From Olsenella uli (GTDB lineage: Bacteria > Actinomycetota > Coriobacteriia > Coriobacteriales > Atopobiaceae), in the NCBI RefSeq assembly GCF_016900775.1, contig NZ_JACJKN010000003.1:1-64000 (forward strand): DNA of 64,000 nucleotides, written 5' to 3'. The notes below the pieces were generated by a model that was given only the letters and a program-made list of their open reading frames with translations, ran no database searches and was not told the DNA's origin. A program made the position numbers and the translations under genes. Numbering within the stretch: the first letter of the stretch is position 1; each line of letters starts with the position of its first letter. This document shows, in pieces, positions 4,131-54,874 of this stretch.

Positions 4131-5792
4131 ATGCTCGAGGTCTCCGGAATCCGCATACCGCTCTCTGCGCTCGACGGCACAGACGGCCGCGAGCTCGCCG
4201 CGTGCCGTCGCGCCCTCGCGCGCAGGCTCCGCGTGGAGGAGGGCGACCTCGGCCCCGTCGAGCGGCGCCGGCGCTCCATCGACGCCCGAAAGCGGGGGGA
4301 CGTCCACCTCACGTTCACGCTGCGCGCCGGGCTCGCGGGCGGCGCAGGGGCGGAGCGCGCCCTGCTCGCCCGCCTCTCCAGAAAGCGTGCCGAGAAGAAC
4401 GTGCGCCTCGTGGACGAGGCCCCCTACGGCTTTCCCTCCCCCGTCGCGCGCCCGGCGGCGCGGCCGGTGGTCGTAGGCGCCGGGTGCGCGGGGCTCTTCT
4501 GCGCGCTCTCGCTCGCCCGCGCGGGGCTCGAGCCGCTGCTCGTCGAGCGCGGCGACGACGCGGCACGTCGCACCGAGGCCGTGCGCCGCCACGACGAGAC
4601 CGGCACGCTCGACCCCGAGAGCAACATCCAGTTCGGCGTCGGCGGCGCGGGCACCTTCTCCGACGGCAAGCTCAACACCGGCACCAGGAGCGCGGCGCAC
4701 CGCCTCATCCTGGAGACGCTCGTCGCGGCCGGCGCCCAGCGGGAGATCCTCTGGGACGCCAAGCCCCACGTGGGAAGCGACGTCCTGCCCGCCGTGGTGA
4801 CAGACATCGTGCGGCAGATCGAGGAGGCGGGCGGCGAGGTCCGCTGCCGCTGCCGCATGACGGACGTGGACGTCACCGAAGGCGAGGTCCGCTCGGTGAC
4901 GCTTGCCTCTACGGGCCCGGACGGCGCGGTGCGCGAGGAGCTCGTGCCCGCGAGCTGCGTGGTGCTGGCCTGCGGGCACTCCGCGCGCGACGTCTTCGAG
5001 CTCCTGCGCGAGCGCGGCGTGCCCATGGAGCGCAAGACCTTCGCCATGGGCGTGCGCATCGAGCACCTCCAGGCGGACGTCGACCGCGCGCTCTACGGCG
5101 CCGCCGCGGGGCACCCCGCCCTCGGCGCCGCCCCCTACAAGCTCTCCTGCCACCTCCCCTCCGGGCGGAGCGCCTTCTCCTTCTGCATGTGCCCGGGCGG
5201 CTACGTGGTCTCCGCGGCGAGCGAGCCGGGCGGCGTCTGCACCAACGGCATGAGCCTCTCGGACCGCGCCGGCGAAAACGCCAACTCGGGGCTGCTCGCC
5301 AACGTCTTCCCGGAAGACCTCCCCGGCGACGACGTGCTCGCCGGCGTGGCGCTCCAGCGCGCCTGCGAGCGGGCGGCCTTCGCGGCAGGCGGCGGTGGCT
5401 TCGTGGCGCCCGCCCAGCTCGTGGGCGACTTCCTCGCCGGCACGCCGTCCACGGCGGGCGGGCGCATCGCGCCCACGTACCCGCGCGGCGTGGCATGGGG
5501 CGAGGTGGGCACGTGCCTGCCGGACTACGTCACGGAGACGCTGCGCGCGGCGATTCCCGTGCTCGGACGACGGCTTCGCGGCTTCGACGCGGCCGACGCC
5601 GTGCTCACGGGAGTGGAGACGCGCTCGAGCTCGCCGGTGCGCGTAACGCGCGGGGACGACGGGCAGAGCGTGGGCGTGCGCGGCCTCTGGCCCGTGGGCG
5701 AGGGCGCGGGCTACGCGGGCGGCATCATGAGCGCCGCCACCGACGGCATCCTCGCCGCCGAGAAGATCGTGGCGGGGTACTCCTCGCGATAG
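4131..5792 (+). CDS. FAD-dependent dehydrogenase, COG2509 type
   Basis: This 553-residue protein has an N-terminal domain of about 110 residues, then the Rossmann motif VVGAGCAGLFCALSLAR at 115-131, and the family sequence NIQFGVGGAGTFSDGKL. It ends with GLWPVGEGAGYAGGI, a second FAD-contact motif. This architecture matches the uncharacterised FAD-dependent dehydrogenase family COG2509, whose N-terminal part is thought to bind nucleic acid or a protein partner; no reaction is established. ATG 4131 follows AAGGGAAAGGA; open frame further upstream runs through repeat DNA and was discarded. A large perfect hairpin follows immediately after the stop. Confidence 0.88.
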   Translation: MLEVSGIRIPLSALDGTDGRELAACRRALARRLRVEEGDLGPVERRRRSIDARKRGDVHLTFTLRAGLAGGAGAERALLARLSRKRAEKNVRLVDEAPYGFPSPVARPAARPVVVGAGCAGLFCALSLARAGLEPLLVERGDDAARRTEAVRRHDETGTLDPESNIQFGVGGAGTFSDGKLNTGTRSAAHRLILETLVAAGAQREILWDAKPHVGSDVLPAVVTDIVRQIEEAGGEVRCRCRMTDVDVTEGEVRSVTLASTGPDGAVREELVPASCVVLACGHSARDVFELLRERGVPMERKTFAMGVRIEHLQADVDRALYGAAAGHPALGAAPYKLSCHLPSGRSAFSFCMCPGGYVVSAASEPGGVCTNGMSLSDRAGENANSGLLANVFPEDLPGDDVLAGVALQRACERAAFAAGGGGFVAPAQLVGDFLAGTPSTAGGRIAPTYPRGVAWGEVGTCLPDYVTETLRAAIPVLGRRLRGFDAADAVLTGVETRSSSPVRVTRGDDGQSVGVRGLWPVGEGAGYAGGIMSAATDGILAAEKIVAGYSSR

Positions 5793-5872
5793 GCCCGCGC
5801 CGCCCCGAGGTTCTTCTCGCTGCTCGCTGCTGCGCAGAAGTCGCGCGAGAAGAACCTCGGGGCGGCGCGGGC
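5793..5872. terminator. Perfect 28-bp inverted repeat after the COG2509 gene
   Basis: The left arm 5793-5820 and right arm 5845-5872 are exact complements over 28 bases around a 24-base loop. The inner ends of the arms are TTCTTCTCGC and GCGAGAAGAA, so two copies of the recurrent GGCGAGAAGAAC-type motif face each other. It starts directly after the stop codon and has no following T-run. It may be a terminator, an RNA-stabilising hairpin, or a mobile palindrome. Confidence 0.7.
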
Positions 5873-5956
5873 CACGGCACAGAGTCTGGCGCCACGGTCT
5901 TCTCGAGACGGGCGCGTCCTTCGGCGGCGGCTGCCGCCGGGATTGGGAGGTTCGGG

Positions 5957-12852: not shown

Positions 12853-13575
12853 CTATCCCGCGATGCCCTCCGGGTAGCTCTCCCGATACCCCTCGTAGGC
12901 GCTCATGACGCGCTCGACATAGGCGCGCGTCTCCGCGTACTCGATGTCCTCCGGTATGCTCCCGCCGTTCGCGAGCCAGCCCTGGACGGCGCCGAGGCCC
13001 GCGTTGTACGCCGCGACGATCTCCTCGGTGGTCGAGAGGTTCTCGTGCAGATAGGCGAGGTACGCGCAGCCGTACTCGATGTTCACGATCGGGTCCGAGA
13101 GGTCTGCCGGGTCGTACTTGCTCGCGTCGACGAGCCCCATCTCCGCGAGATGGGCCGCCGTGTCCGGCATGACCTGCATGAGCCCCACGGCCCCCGCATG
13201 CGACACCACGTCCTCGTCCCAGTCCGACTCGCACTTGATGACCGCGCAGACGAGCGCCGGGTCGAGGCCGTAGTCCTCGGCCGCGACCTTCACCGCCTCG
13301 GGATAGTGCGTCCCCAGGAAGAGGCGGCGCAGCGGCGAGGTGGGGACGGCCGCCATCACGAGCAGCGCCGCCACCGCGACGCCGAGCACCACGAGCAGGG
13401 CAGCGCGACGCGAGACTCCGCCGGACGCCCGCGGGGTGCGCCGAGCACGCGGGGTCGCCTTCCTCCGTGCGGGCCCGGCCGACCGCCGCGCCGCAGACCC
13501 CGCGGCGGAGGGGGCGTGAGTCTTCGGGGCGCGGCCGGTCTTCCCTCTCGGCGTCGGCCTAGGCCCGCGCCTCAT
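12853..13575 (-). CDS. SLT-type lytic transglycosylase, membrane-anchored
   Basis: This 240-residue protein has an unusually basic, Ala/Pro/Arg-rich cytoplasmic N-terminus of about 55 residues, one membrane helix near 58-77, then an extracellular SLT domain. The catalytic glutamate is Glu116 in KCESDW, followed by GAVGLMQVMP and AAYNAGLGAVQGWL, typical of family 1 transglycosylases. It should cleave peptidoglycan between MurNAc and GlcNAc to form anhydro-MurNAc. The start overlaps the end of coaE by 17 bases, so the pair is coupled; this is a placement outside any cell-wall cluster. Confidence 0.92.
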   Translation of the reverse strand: MRRGPRPTPRGKTGRAPKTHAPSAAGSAARRSAGPARRKATPRARRTPRASGGVSRRAALLVVLGVAVAALLVMAAVPTSPLRRLFLGTHYPEAVKVAAEDYGLDPALVCAVIKCESDWDEDVVSHAGAVGLMQVMPDTAAHLAEMGLVDASKYDPADLSDPIVNIEYGCAYLAYLHENLSTTEEIVAAYNAGLGAVQGWLANGGSIPEDIEYAETRAYVERVMSAYEGYRESYPEGIAG

Positions 13576-14248
13576 GCCCGGACCCCTTGGCGACGGGCGC
13601 CCAGCCGGCCTCCTCGCGCGCCTTCCACCAGTCGTGGACCTCCTGGGCCATCACGTCCGCCGTGCGGATGTTGTTGAAGACGTGCGAGCTGTGGGCGCGC
13701 AGGTACGCCTCGCTCGGCTGCTGGTCGCGCCGGCGCTCGAAGTCGCCGCGGTCCATGCCGCGCTGGATGGCGCGGACGCGCCGGGCGTTGAGCGGGCAGA
13801 CCACGCACACGATCTCGTCGGCCAGGTCGAAGGACCCGCGCATGCGGTCGAGGAGCGGGACCTCAACCACCGCGACGCGCTCCGCGGGCGCAGGCTCGCC
13901 GTTCTTCTCGGCCTCGGCGCGGGCCGCGTCCTCCTCCGCGCGGAGCTCCGCGATGCGGGCGCGCAGCAGCTCGTCGATGAGCGGCAGCTCGATCTCCTCG
14001 AGCGTGACCGAGCGCTCCATCGTCACGAAGGCGCGCGCCGCGAGCAGGCGGCGGTTCACGGTGCCGTCCGGGCGCACGACGTCGTCGCCGAACTCGCGGC
14101 AGATGTCCGGCAGGATGCGCGACCCAGGCGCGAGCGCCTCCCTCGAGAGGTCGTCGAGGTCGATGAGCGTGGCCCCGCACTCGCGCATGGTGCGGGCTAT
14201 GGTCGACTTGCCCGAGGCGATGCCCCCGGCCAGATAGATGACGTGCAT
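13559..14248 (-). CDS. coaE: Dephospho-CoA kinase
   Basis: This 229-residue protein has the P-loop GGIASGKST at residues 8-16, then LIDLDDLSREAL and the CoaE-type lid and CoA-binding region. It phosphorylates the 3'-hydroxyl of dephospho-CoA in the last step of CoA synthesis. ATG 14248 follows GACGGAGGGGGACGC. A charged insertion, AEEDAARAEAEKNGEP, lies mid-protein and makes it slightly longer than the usual 200 residues. It overlaps the transglycosylase gene downstream. Confidence 0.93.
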   Translation of the reverse strand: MHVIYLAGGIASGKSTIARTMRECGATLIDLDDLSREALAPGSRILPDICREFGDDVVRPDGTVNRRLLAARAFVTMERSVTLEEIELPLIDELLRARIAELRAEEDAARAEAEKNGEPAPAERVAVVEVPLLDRMRGSFDLADEIVCVVCPLNARRVRAIQRGMDRGDFERRRDQQPSEAYLRAHSSHVFNNIRTADVMAQEVHDWWKAREEAGWAPVAKGSGHEARA

Positions 14249-14365
14249 GCGTCCCCCTCCGTCGTCAATTGATCGAGGGATATCTTCGCATGCCCACGCT
14301 CCCGCACGGGCCCACGCCGAGAAAAACCCGCCCATCTCCAGAGGGCGCCGGGAGGCCTGACAACA

Positions 14366-14432
14366 CCTGACAAGGGTGACAGGGTCGTTTGTCATGAAAA
14401 ACATGACAAACGACCCTGTCACCCTTGTCAGG
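14366..14432. repeat. Perfect 31-bp inverted repeat, CCTGACA family
   Basis: The arms 14366-14396 and 14402-14432 are exact complements around the loop AAAAA. The left arm starts CCTGACAAGGGTGACAGG and continues GTCGTTTGTCATG. The right end provides the stop codon TGA (14428-14430, read on the minus strand) of the adjacent membrane protein gene. Related copies lie at 20817-20846 and 53426-53489. Confidence 0.9.
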
Positions 14433-14934
14433 TTGCCGGGCCTCTCCTGGCAAACGTCCCCGCCAGTGCGATGACGACCCCGCACACGATTCCCAGGACG
14501 GCGGGGAGCACGAACGCGCCCGCGAGCCCCAGCGCGAGGGCGGCCGCCATGAGCGCCGCGCCGAGGGCAACGAGCGCCAGGCCGACGTTGCGGTGCCGCC
14601 CGGCCACCACAAGCAGCTCGTCCTTCTCGCCCCGCTCCCAGAGCAGGTGCGAGCGCACCATGACCTGGCACACCTCCAGGGCGCAGCACAGCGTCATGAC
14701 CACGGCGAGACGGAGGGGCCGAAGGACCTCGCCCGAGACGAGCTCGCCTCCCCACATGATTCCCGAGGCCTCGGGCGCGAGGGCACTCAGGACGAACACG
14801 GCCGCCTCGCACGCGAGATACACCACCGTCAGGACGAGAAGGACGATGCTGGCGACCGCCCAGCGCTGCGTCGTCGAGAAACGTACCTCGTAGTGCTTGC
14901 CCGACGCCTCCTCCATGGCAGACGAGAACAGCAT
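14428..14934 (-). CDS. Small integral membrane protein, four predicted helices
   Basis: This 168-residue hydrophobic protein has helices near residues 26-50, 72-92, 115-137 and 140-160 and is rich in Ala, Leu and Val. No family is recognised. The start with GGGAGGATGCC before ATG 14934 is convincing. Its last sense codons (GPAT) run straight into TGACAAGGG of the 31-bp palindrome, which supplies the stop codon. The original C-terminus may therefore have been altered by the element. It is followed by coaE on the same strand. Confidence 0.75.
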   Translation of the reverse strand: MLFSSAMEEASGKHYEVRFSTTQRWAVASIVLLVLTVVYLACEAAVFVLSALAPEASGIMWGGELVSGEVLRPLRLAVVMTLCCALEVCQVMVRSHLLWERGEKDELLVVAGRHRNVGLALVALGAALMAAALALGLAGAFVLPAVLGIVCGVVIALAGTFARRGPAT

Positions 14935-15063
14935 GGCATCCTCCCTTACCGAACATCGCCCCTGAAGTTACTGCTTTTATGCCCAATCAGGCCGGCCCGA
15001 TCGGGGGGCGGCCCGCATGGAGCCGAGCGGCCCGTTTTTCCCGGCAGGCGGGACCGCACCGCC

Positions 15064-18022: not shown

Positions 18023-18104
18023 CTCTCCCCCTTGGTCGCATATCAACCCTTTGCTGATACCCATTCTTGGGCGTCTCTACACATGGCGGCGGGCGGCACG
18101 CCCC

Positions 18105-18276
18105 TTCCGGGTACGTACACACCCCCTCCGGGTACGTACACACCCCTTCCGGGTACGTACGCCCGCACCACGCCCAGGTTCTTATCGGCACAAGAAAACC
18201 CCAGGTCAGAGGCCTGGGGCTCCCATATCAACAGGTGAAGTTCGTACGTACCCGGGGGCGGAGTGTACGTACCCGG
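18105..18276. repeat. Five GGGTACGTAC motifs, three direct and two inverted
   Basis: Three tandem units of about 21 bases, CCGGGTACGTACACACCCC, lie between 18105 and 18160, and two inverted copies lie at 18243-18254 and 18264-18276. They sit between the zinc-ribbon gene and the end of the M42 peptidase gene, on either side of that gene's terminator. The arms could pair over the terminator. Confidence 0.85.
18191..18219 (-). terminator. Rho-independent terminator of the M42 peptidase transcript
   Basis: On the minus strand CCCCAGG and CCTGGGG form a stem with a 7-base loop, followed directly by TTTTCTTG. It lies about 90 bases after the M42 stop. Confidence 0.75.
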
Positions 18277-18310
18277 AGAGGGCCCCGCCCCAGGGCCCGG
18301 CGAGAAGGAC

Positions 18311-26837: not shown

Positions 26838-27146
26838 TTGTTAGGGAATCGCGGCCGTTGCAGGAATTGGGGTCCCGCGGGTTAGAAACTCCCACCGGTT
26901 GCAGGCCGTCCCGGACGGGCCGTTAGCGGCTCGGAGTCGTTGCGCCGCATAAGGGGCGAGAAGAACCCGCGGGCCGCCCGCGCGGGCCGCAGGCGGCGCG
27001 ATCGGGCGGCGTGGCAGGGCGCCTCCGCTCGCCCCTTCCCGCGACGACCCCGCGCCTCCAACGTTCTTCTCGCCCCTCCGCGCAACGACCCCGGATTGCT
27101 AACCGCTCCCGCCCGAATGTGCGCAACGACCCCGGATTGCTAACCA
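26838..27146. repeat. GTTAG...TCGTTGC repeat cluster, five copies
   Basis: There is no gene in 26681-27233. Three direct copies of a 24-26 base unit (GTTAGGGAATCGCGGCCGTT and variants) start at about 26839, 26880 and 26921, and two inverted copies (GCAACGACCCCGGATTGC) lie at 27081-27105 and 27122-27146. The inner part between the two orientations is bounded by GGCGAGAAGAACC (26955-26967) and GTTCTTCTCGCC (27063-27074), which face each other. The same family recurs at 29471-29701 and 42105-42220. Confidence 0.88.
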
Positions 27147-29470: not shown

Positions 29471-29701
29471 TCTGCGTTAGGGAATGGCGGTCGTTGCGGC
29501 CCCGCCGCCGCTCCGGGTTAGTAACTGCCGGTCGTTGCAGGCGGGCCGCCCCTCTTGGTTAGAGAATCGCCGTCGTTGCGCGCCACGAGCGGTGCCACCC
29601 TCGTGAGAAATAACGTTTGACGCTAACTGATTGCCAGAATCCGGCTTCATCGCGCGGGCCCGCCCCCTCAGGCCCGCAACGACCCCCACTTTCTAACGCG
29701 C
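29471..29701. repeat. GTTAG...TCGTTGC repeat cluster, second locus
   Basis: Three direct copies start at about 29474, 29517 and 29558 (for example GGTTAGAGAATCGCCGTCGT), and an inverted copy (CGCAACGACCCCCACTTTCT) lies near 29676-29698; a half-copy GCTAACTGATTGCC lies near 29622. A GTTCTTCTCGCC motif (29449-29460) precedes the cluster and GGCGAGAAAAACC (29703-29715) closes it, inverted. The cluster lies between HAD and glnN; no gene was seen in 29435-30126. Confidence 0.88.
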
Positions 29702-36024: not shown

Positions 36025-36070
36025 GCCAGGCCGACGTCCTTCTCGCCGGGCCGTCGCGCGCCCTCCAAGT

Positions 36071-36208
36071 CGCGGTTGTGAGCAACACGTTTGATGCGAC
36101 AGATAAAAGGTGTTGCACACAACCGCGCCGCCCCGTGCCCAAACGTGCAAAACCGCGCGGAGGTGGCGCGCCGGGGGCCGCTGCATAAAAGATGTTGCTC
36201 ACAACCGC
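36071..36208. repeat. GGTTGTGAGCAACA inverted repeats
   Basis: One direct copy (CGCGGTTGTGAGCAACACGT, 36071-36092) faces two inverted copies (GTGTTGCACACAACCGCG, 36110-36127; ATGTTGCTCACAACCGC, 36192-36208). Each lies next to an AT-rich run ATAAAAG. This is a separate family from the cluster just upstream. Confidence 0.85.
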
Positions 36209-36338
36209 CCGGCGGAGGGCGGAAACGTCGCCCGGCGGAGCGCGCGAGACGCCCCGGTGCAAAACCGCGGCCCCACGCGCCAGAGAAAAAGTCGCCCGGA
36301 CGGAAGGAGGTCCGTCCGGGCGACGCAGACGCTCGCGG

Positions 36339-50221: not shown

Positions 50222-54874
<4,653 letters not shown>

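Follow-up and report, generated by a model that had tools for sequence, protein, structure and literature searches.

A perfect hairpin at the end of a membrane-protein gene of Olsenella uli belongs to a RAYT-linked family of palindromes

The window, a 64,000-nucleotide stretch of the Olsenella uli genome that was analysed as a whole, contains a long inverted repeat at the end of a predicted membrane-protein gene; the neighbours are coaE and, in the other direction, ABC transporter genes. Positions of the features are collected in Table 1. An inverted-repeat search of the window returned two arms of 32 nt each, 100% complementary and 5 nt apart, so that the perfect repeat described in a sequence-only reading of this DNA is real and extends one pair beyond the 31 noted there. 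The stop codon of the membrane-protein ORF (14430-14428) is the TGA of the repeat's outer TGACAAGGG box, as that reading had also claimed. A perfect 32-bp hairpin stands far above chance in 64 kb, for which an expectation of the order of 64000 x 4^-32 is estimated, and the RNA fold of the window copy is very stable (-64.2 kcal/mol). The membrane protein matched no Pfam family, and an Rfam search of positions 14000-15000 gave 14 matches at E up to 1, all of them to microRNA models below the gathering score.

Table 1. Features of the hairpin locus and of the second family copy in the window
Feature	Position	Strand	Remarks
coaE (dephospho-CoA kinase)	13559..14248	-	neighbour
Extra box CCTGACAAC	14356..14364	+	adjoins left arm; read by eye; possibly remnant of an outer unit
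Left hairpin arm	14365..14396		REP-like unit TGACAAGGGTGACAGGGTCGTTTGTCA at 14368-14394
Loop AAAAA	14397..14401		
Right hairpin arm	14402..14433		perfect complement; minus-strand REP-like unit 14404-14430
Stop TGA of membrane-protein gene	14428..14430	-	within the repeat's outer TGACA box
Predicted membrane-protein gene	14428..14934	-	168 aa; repeat-derived stop
gltB (glutamate synthase, large subunit)	50222..54874	-	1550 aa
Second, diverged TGACA-family copy	53419..53496		arms 81% complementary; in frame inside gltB

A DNA search of the O. uli genome (2.48 Mb, 66 contigs) with the hairpin gave 76 matches on both strands and located a near-identical copy elsewhere (97% over 73 nt). Forty places were counted by hand from this search, 37 with arms of at least 29 nt; 35 entered alignment A1, from which L047 and L048 were excluded for their long loops. 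A covariance model built from A1 (R1) returned at least 118 matches, equivalent to at least 59 places, with 150 of 1050 first-look candidates scored. The model finds a match in 29 of 31 genomes of the genus; its matches extend to hairpins of further families (in the relative termed G015, of the GAGACA and GCCA types), and its counts per genome are not specific to the TGACA family. Arm sequences vary among the copies, while each copy matches itself: no arm mismatch was present in 45 of the 59 hairpins of the O. uli genome, so that exact complementarity, which the sequence-only reading had held to be rare, is common within this family. In the 35 aligned copies 97.3% of cells are paired and 14 pairs changed on both sides, with 106 double-change cells against 26.3 in shuffles (0/500) that ignore relatedness and so do not yield a probability. 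G-U pairs are few despite the many pairs with both sides changed, and some loop types recur in several copies.

Each copy follows the plan TGACA-AAGG-TGACAGGG-spacer-TGTCA, with two REP-like units inverted around a short loop. The family thus shares with REPINs the inverted REP-like units within one hairpin and the many dispersed extragenic copies (59 places, one intragenic). Because the 35-copy consensus lacks the 5' GT[AG]G foot, the family is not placed among the classical GTAG REPs. The intragenic copy lies at about residue 462 of gltB, in the stretch that separates the GATase_2 domain (24-447) from the central domain (491-772); the glutamate synthases of G015 and of a second relative, G008, have no hairpin copy and leave an alignment gap of 11 residues at this point. 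The repeat can furnish both stop codons and an in-frame linker.

Five Y1_Tnp genes with open frames of 261-290 codons are present in the O. uli genome. One, a RAYT-like gene at G000:C2:101671-102441 (the C2 RAYT), is bracketed by TGACA-family arms, while the other four lie between other arm types. Since the same arms bracket one of the five RAYT-like Y1 genes, the hairpin is best described as a REPIN-like palindromic doublet, for which the TIRYT type would fit better than the classical REP type. The C2 product scores 40.8 bits against Y1_Tnp (cut-off 23) and 59.8 bits, below the 80-bit cut-off, against the NCBIfam model of REP-associated tyrosine transposases (NF047646). A C-terminal helix-turn-helix is indicated only weakly (TetR_N, E 0.053; HTH_31, E 0.04), and comparison with solved structures gave nothing matching at E 0.001. 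The sequence contains NHVH and YVHLNP, the motifs (NHVH, Y[IV]HLNP) of TIRYT and TnpA-Y1 subclass 2.1, and would thus fit subclass 2.1 and likely the TIRYT group, two classes that, to judge from the accessible text of PMC6006769, are probably the same. The core of the C2 arms, GGTGACAG, agrees with 7 of 8 letters of GGGGWSAS, and the arms of the RAYT genes on contigs C24, C35 and C8 include GGGGACAG.

Relatives of the C2 RAYT occur in 28 of the 31 genomes. Thirty-four RAYT loci were inspected, 30 with a usable frame and 29 of those with an inverted arm pair; a retry of nine added six. No RAYT frame was found at L100, L102, L110, L114, L273 or L281, and no arms at L107 or L278. The arms have a plan in common, comprising a stem box, a core near GGGGACAG and the inverse stem box. 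At the locus syntenic with C2, the G015 RAYT carries GCCA arms. In the G008 relative (L280, C3:80700-83300) the match is spread over two overlapping frames, and the gene may be broken.

The copies are placed predominantly at gene 3' ends. Genes were called by a hexamer script made for this analysis. By these calls, 50 of the 59 copies either overlap a gene 3' end or have a facing one no more than 30 nt away; the gltB copy was entered with a distance of 1597 nt to a facing end, although it lies inside the gene. Fifteen copies overlap a stop codon, and the TGA of the TGACA box is the stop for 14 gene ends. In gaps between co-directional genes, 29 of the 32 copies used (out of 36; distances up to 400 nt) are nearer the upstream stop than the downstream start, at medians of 5 and 89 nt. 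Divergent gene pairs enclose four copies, and one, that of gltB, lies inside a gene. Placement of REP elements behind genes is already known (PMC3733652, accessible text). A canonical intrinsic transcription terminator was rejected, as a T-rich tail follows the hairpin at 0 of 64 facing gene ends.

The gene ends occupied in O. uli (slots) were compared with their orthologues in G015 and G008. Identity is 93.0% between the two relatives and 90.8 and 89.6%, respectively, between O. uli and each of them. The two window copies and six hand-paired loci were omitted; 51 copies were left, of which 43 had a gene end within 35 nt, 42 were retained and 41 were used. The 190 nt behind each orthologous end were scanned for a hairpin by one rule, with family types assigned by simple patterns. 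REPIN-type hairpins were found at 21 of 38 testable ends in G015 and at 29 of 39 in G008. Control ends, namely window gene ends with a syntenic orthologue scanned by the same rule, carry a REPIN-type hairpin in 1/37 and 1/36 cases (any hairpin, 3/37 and 4/36), giving Fisher P values for the REPIN types of 3e-7 and 6e-11, respectively. A smaller control near the slots gave 3/19 and 4/16, where in each case two entries are one hairpin of an already counted slot. Flank homology often picks up within some bases on both sides whatever the family, if not at every slot; the right flank is unanchored at slots 2, 9, 33 and 39 in either relative and at slot 16 in G008.

The families at these shared slots differ. 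The 38 ends in G015 comprise 12 GCCA hairpins, 2 GCCA with GTGCA, 6 GTGCA, 1 GAGACA, 2 other hairpins and 15 with none, including slot 4 (L237), which reaches a contig end and was entered as 'none'; no TGACA hairpin was present at any of them. The 39 in G008 comprise 22 TGACA, 6 GTGCA, 1 GCCA and 10 with none. Exact arm cores across the three genomes number 137 TGACA cores in O. uli, 110 in G008 and 6 in G015; 0, 4 and 91 GCCA cores, respectively; and 20, 105 and 118 GTGCA cores, respectively. Reversed control patterns gave 0 in all three. Nine slots (6, 9, 11, 15, 20, 22, 23, 32 and 33) hold TGACA in both O. uli and G008 but GCCA or GAGACA types in G015, a pattern that would be explained most simply by a switch in the lineage of G015. 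Where O. uli and G008 both have TGACA (22 slots), G015 has another family at 9, no recognised REPIN type at 11 (one of which reads into a contig end) and a contig end that cuts off the remaining 2; by these counts hairpin loss is at least as common as family exchange.

Possible traces of an earlier occupant are seen at some slots. Seven locus pairs were located through G015 matches and stand outside the statistics, two of them (L121/L136 and L132/L138) with flank homology on one side. At the pair L040 (O. uli) and L141 (G015), a GCCA hairpin lies beside the remnant GGTGCTGACAAGGG, and at slot 6 of G015 TCTGACAAAG is kept outside the GCCA hairpin. Slots 9, 13, 15, 20 and 23 of G015 display hairpins nested within hairpins, including GTGCA inside GCCA; remnants and nests alike were read by eye. 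Together they suggest replacement in place. As separate observations, G015 locus L242 (C34:104087-104802) is a multi-layer nested palindrome of GGGGACGGGTTATTTCTCTCAG-like and GCCA-type units, and the arms of the G015 RAYT gene L276 are of the GGGGACGGGTTATTTCTCTCAG-like kind.

The reading that best accommodates these observations, with a probability of roughly 0.7, is that the hairpin represents one of the scattered copies of a REPIN-like doublet that would be mobilised by the RAYT and whose slots would be turned over in place. It draws on the 59 hairpins, the 45 perfect ones, the covarying arms, the RAYT bracket, the placement of copies at gene 3' ends, the excess at orthologous slots, the GCCA arms and cores of G015, the remnants and the nests. 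Several observations sit less easily with it: loss is at least as frequent as exchange, the G008 RAYT is perhaps broken yet 110 TGACA cores are present there, O. uli has a GTGCA-type RAYT yet few GTGCA cores, and loops are kept through a change of family no more often than by chance (permutation P 0.28). On this last result, an exchange of arms with the loop retained across the family change, which slots 28 and 31 had seemed to suggest, was rejected. A bolder version, in which RAYT-type transposases land on existing palindromes, the new hairpin enters the tip or body of the resident one, the old arms are lost and slots are inherited, with the family swapped genome-wide after a change of specificity, is quite possible, if somewhat short of an even chance. 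If true, it would amount to a slot-faithful, concerted replacement of mobile elements, between families whose similarity is too low for ordinary recombination.

A tentative alternative is that the shared slots are hot or permissive gene ends, filled by independent insertion in each species after loss, with no element-by-element replacement. Because few bases behind a stop codon are permissive, coincident positions would be likely for copies lying right behind stops, and slots 2, 5, 26 and 27, which are hairpin-free in both relatives, indicate that gains or losses do occur. This account is opposed by the scarcity of REPIN-type hairpins at the control ends, by the TGACA remnants directly outside the GCCA hairpins of G015 (L141 and slot 6) and by the nested hairpins at the five slots listed above.

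Arms and loops carry a history of their own. The 19 slot pairs of O. uli and G008 with a readable arm share a mean of 24.4 of 27 letters against 23.3 in random pairing (P 0.0009); five pairs are identical, and the spacer TCAAC is common to 10 of the 19 G008 arms. In view of these identities and of the common spacer, some TGACA copies are inherited and others look rewritten. At slots 23 and 38 (O. uli and G008) and at slot 3 (G015 and G008) one loop is the exact reverse complement of the other, a flip that would fit both template switching and insertion in the other orientation; at slot 32 both arms changed together while the loop stayed similar. These loops and slot 32 are what would be expected if replication template switching evened the arms and flipped the loop of any inverted repeat, with no transposase involved, and arm homogenisation and spacer inversion have been described for yeast inverted repeats (PMC8604942, accessible text). 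As the whole explanation this is nonetheless rather unlikely, as it accounts neither for the dispersal in 59 copies nor for the RAYT bracket nor for the change from TGACA to GCCA or GTGCA, and the flipped loops may represent separate insertions in opposite orientation, as some loop types recur. A further candidate, in which fold-back synthesis at insertion would leave an inverted duplicate of the flank, was rejected, the outer palindromic extensions often being partial REP-like units, although some extensions are unexplained.

The membrane-protein gene is present in three of the 31 genomes, including O. uli; the orthologue in G015, the closest relative, is 84% identical and the G008 version is cut short. 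The C-terminus reads ...RRGPA-TAA in G015 and ...RRGPA-ACC-TGA in O. uli, where ACCTGACA is the repeat edge, supporting the loss of the native stop and the gain of one threonine in O. uli. One-residue extensions that look alike are suggested at slot 2 (RMPKG* in O. uli, RMPR* with TAG in both relatives) and slot 24 (EIRPS* in O. uli, CCG-TAG at that point in the relatives, read by eye). The remaining compared ends, at those slots where C-termini are comparable, are either unchanged or shifted by -3 to +2 residues. The effect of the repeat on stop codons is thus small but real. The interval between coaE and the membrane-protein gene spans 82 bp in O. uli and 536 bp in G015, with both flanks colinear. 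In G015 it carries an extra ORF of 151 aa and, on the coaE side, what is likely a collapsed repeat remnant. This ORF was found at this place in G015 only; 10 other genomes, O. uli included, have matches to it elsewhere at 32-40% identity, and either an insertion or a deletion may have shaped the membrane-gene end. Given the extra ORF and the likely remnant near coaE, the repeat may be older than the gene-end junction, in which case a deletion may have joined gene and repeat.

The sequence-only reading had suggested that insertion here may have replaced the natural end of the gene, had taken the exact arms to imply recent origin or selection, and had named an orthologue ending at the same residue without the repeat as the outcome that would refute it. 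The G015 orthologue, whose native TAA follows directly on the alanine, comes within one residue of that outcome. Replacement of the native TAA by the repeat's TGA stands, and the near-identical copy elsewhere in the genome would agree with a recent event; yet the C-terminus differs by a single residue, and the likely G015 remnant and intervening ORF count against it. A recent insertion that cut the gene short and supplied its new end is unlikely. Least probable of all is a role in RNA at gene ends, through termination or protection of mRNA 3' ends, with slots refilled because loss is costly: the 3' placement, the stable fold of the window copy, the shared slots, which refilling would explain, and the presence of a separate simple terminator within 120 nt beyond the hairpin at only 1 of 64 facing ends (a figure with no baseline from other gene ends) would agree with it, but the T-rich tail is absent throughout, G-U pairs are few despite the frequent two-sided pair changes, a gene carries one copy in frame, and 15/38 (G015) and 10/39 (G008) slots have no hairpin.

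Under the preferred reading of a mobilised doublet turned over in place, the doublet would most likely be non-autonomous and handled in trans, as single-stranded DNA, by the C2 RAYT. Insertions at other places are proposed to be harmful, which would leave copies chiefly right behind stop codons. In one frame the TGACA boxes would offer an adjoining gene its TGA, whereas the element can be read through in the other two. Perfect arms would follow from turnover, in which hairpins at persistent gene-end slots repeatedly disappear, are renewed or are overwritten, at times by a different family; template switching inside the hairpin may also even out the arms.

The family resembles several known systems, compared here through the accessible parts of the cited papers. 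REPINs and their RAYTs (Bertels and Rainey 2011, PMC3116915) share the long-hairpin inverted doublets, the compensatory arm changes, which are thus already known, and a single-copy RAYT bracketed by the same units. In contrast, the family described here has no GT[AG]G foot, its arms are nearly continuous with a loop of a few nucleotides rather than a longer spacer, and its copies number tens rather than hundreds. TIRtrons and TIRYTs (Di Nocera and colleagues 2013, PMC3733652) share a Y1 transposase (about 260 aa) that contains NHVH and YVHLNP, and inverted repeats with a core near GGGGWSAS, from which GGTGACAG differs at 1 of 8 letters; dispersed TIR families in dimers are mentioned in that paper. 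No REP-like sequences beside TnpA-Y1 subclass 2.1 genes are reported in PMC6006769, whereas in O. uli the units that bracket the gene are found again in 59 hairpins with perfect or near-perfect arms. Dispersed REPIN-like hairpins would thus be linked to a transposase type reported without REP-like sequences. The orthoswitch of REP classes (Nunvar and colleagues 2013, PMC3686654) is similar in the syntenic RAYT, with TGACA arms in O. uli and GCCA arms in G015, and in the matching abundance in each genome. In that model the original REPs stay and decay while new ones spread; here, hairpins of the new family sit in many of the old slots. Template-switch repeats (PMC8604942) share the arm homogenisation and spacer inversion, and were described in yeast coding DNA with no link to mobile elements. 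Titles and abstract openings in the open-licence literature on REPIN, RAYT, REP, TIRYT and orthoswitch report no family exchange at orthologous slots, and this exchange is the part that deserves follow-up. How RAYTs spread and maintain REPINs, and what REPINs are for, is left open in the accessible text of PMC3116915 and PMC3686654, and the three close relatives form a natural series that allows replacement, nesting, collapse and loop inversion to be followed directly.

Other repeats are present in the window. A perfect 29-nt inverted repeat of another type (GCGAGAAGAACCTCGGGG) lies at 5792-5873, at the end of the gene 4131-5792, and a hairpin of the same type is found at this gene end in G015 and G008. 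Units of the GGGTACGTACAC type occur in direct and inverted orientation at 18100-18283. Repeated CGCAACGACCCC...TAAC units occupy 27064-27144 and 29658-29697, two side by side and the third 2.5 kb away, while positions 36059-36221 hold a 39-nt imperfect inverted repeat with 79% complementary arms lying 85 nt apart.
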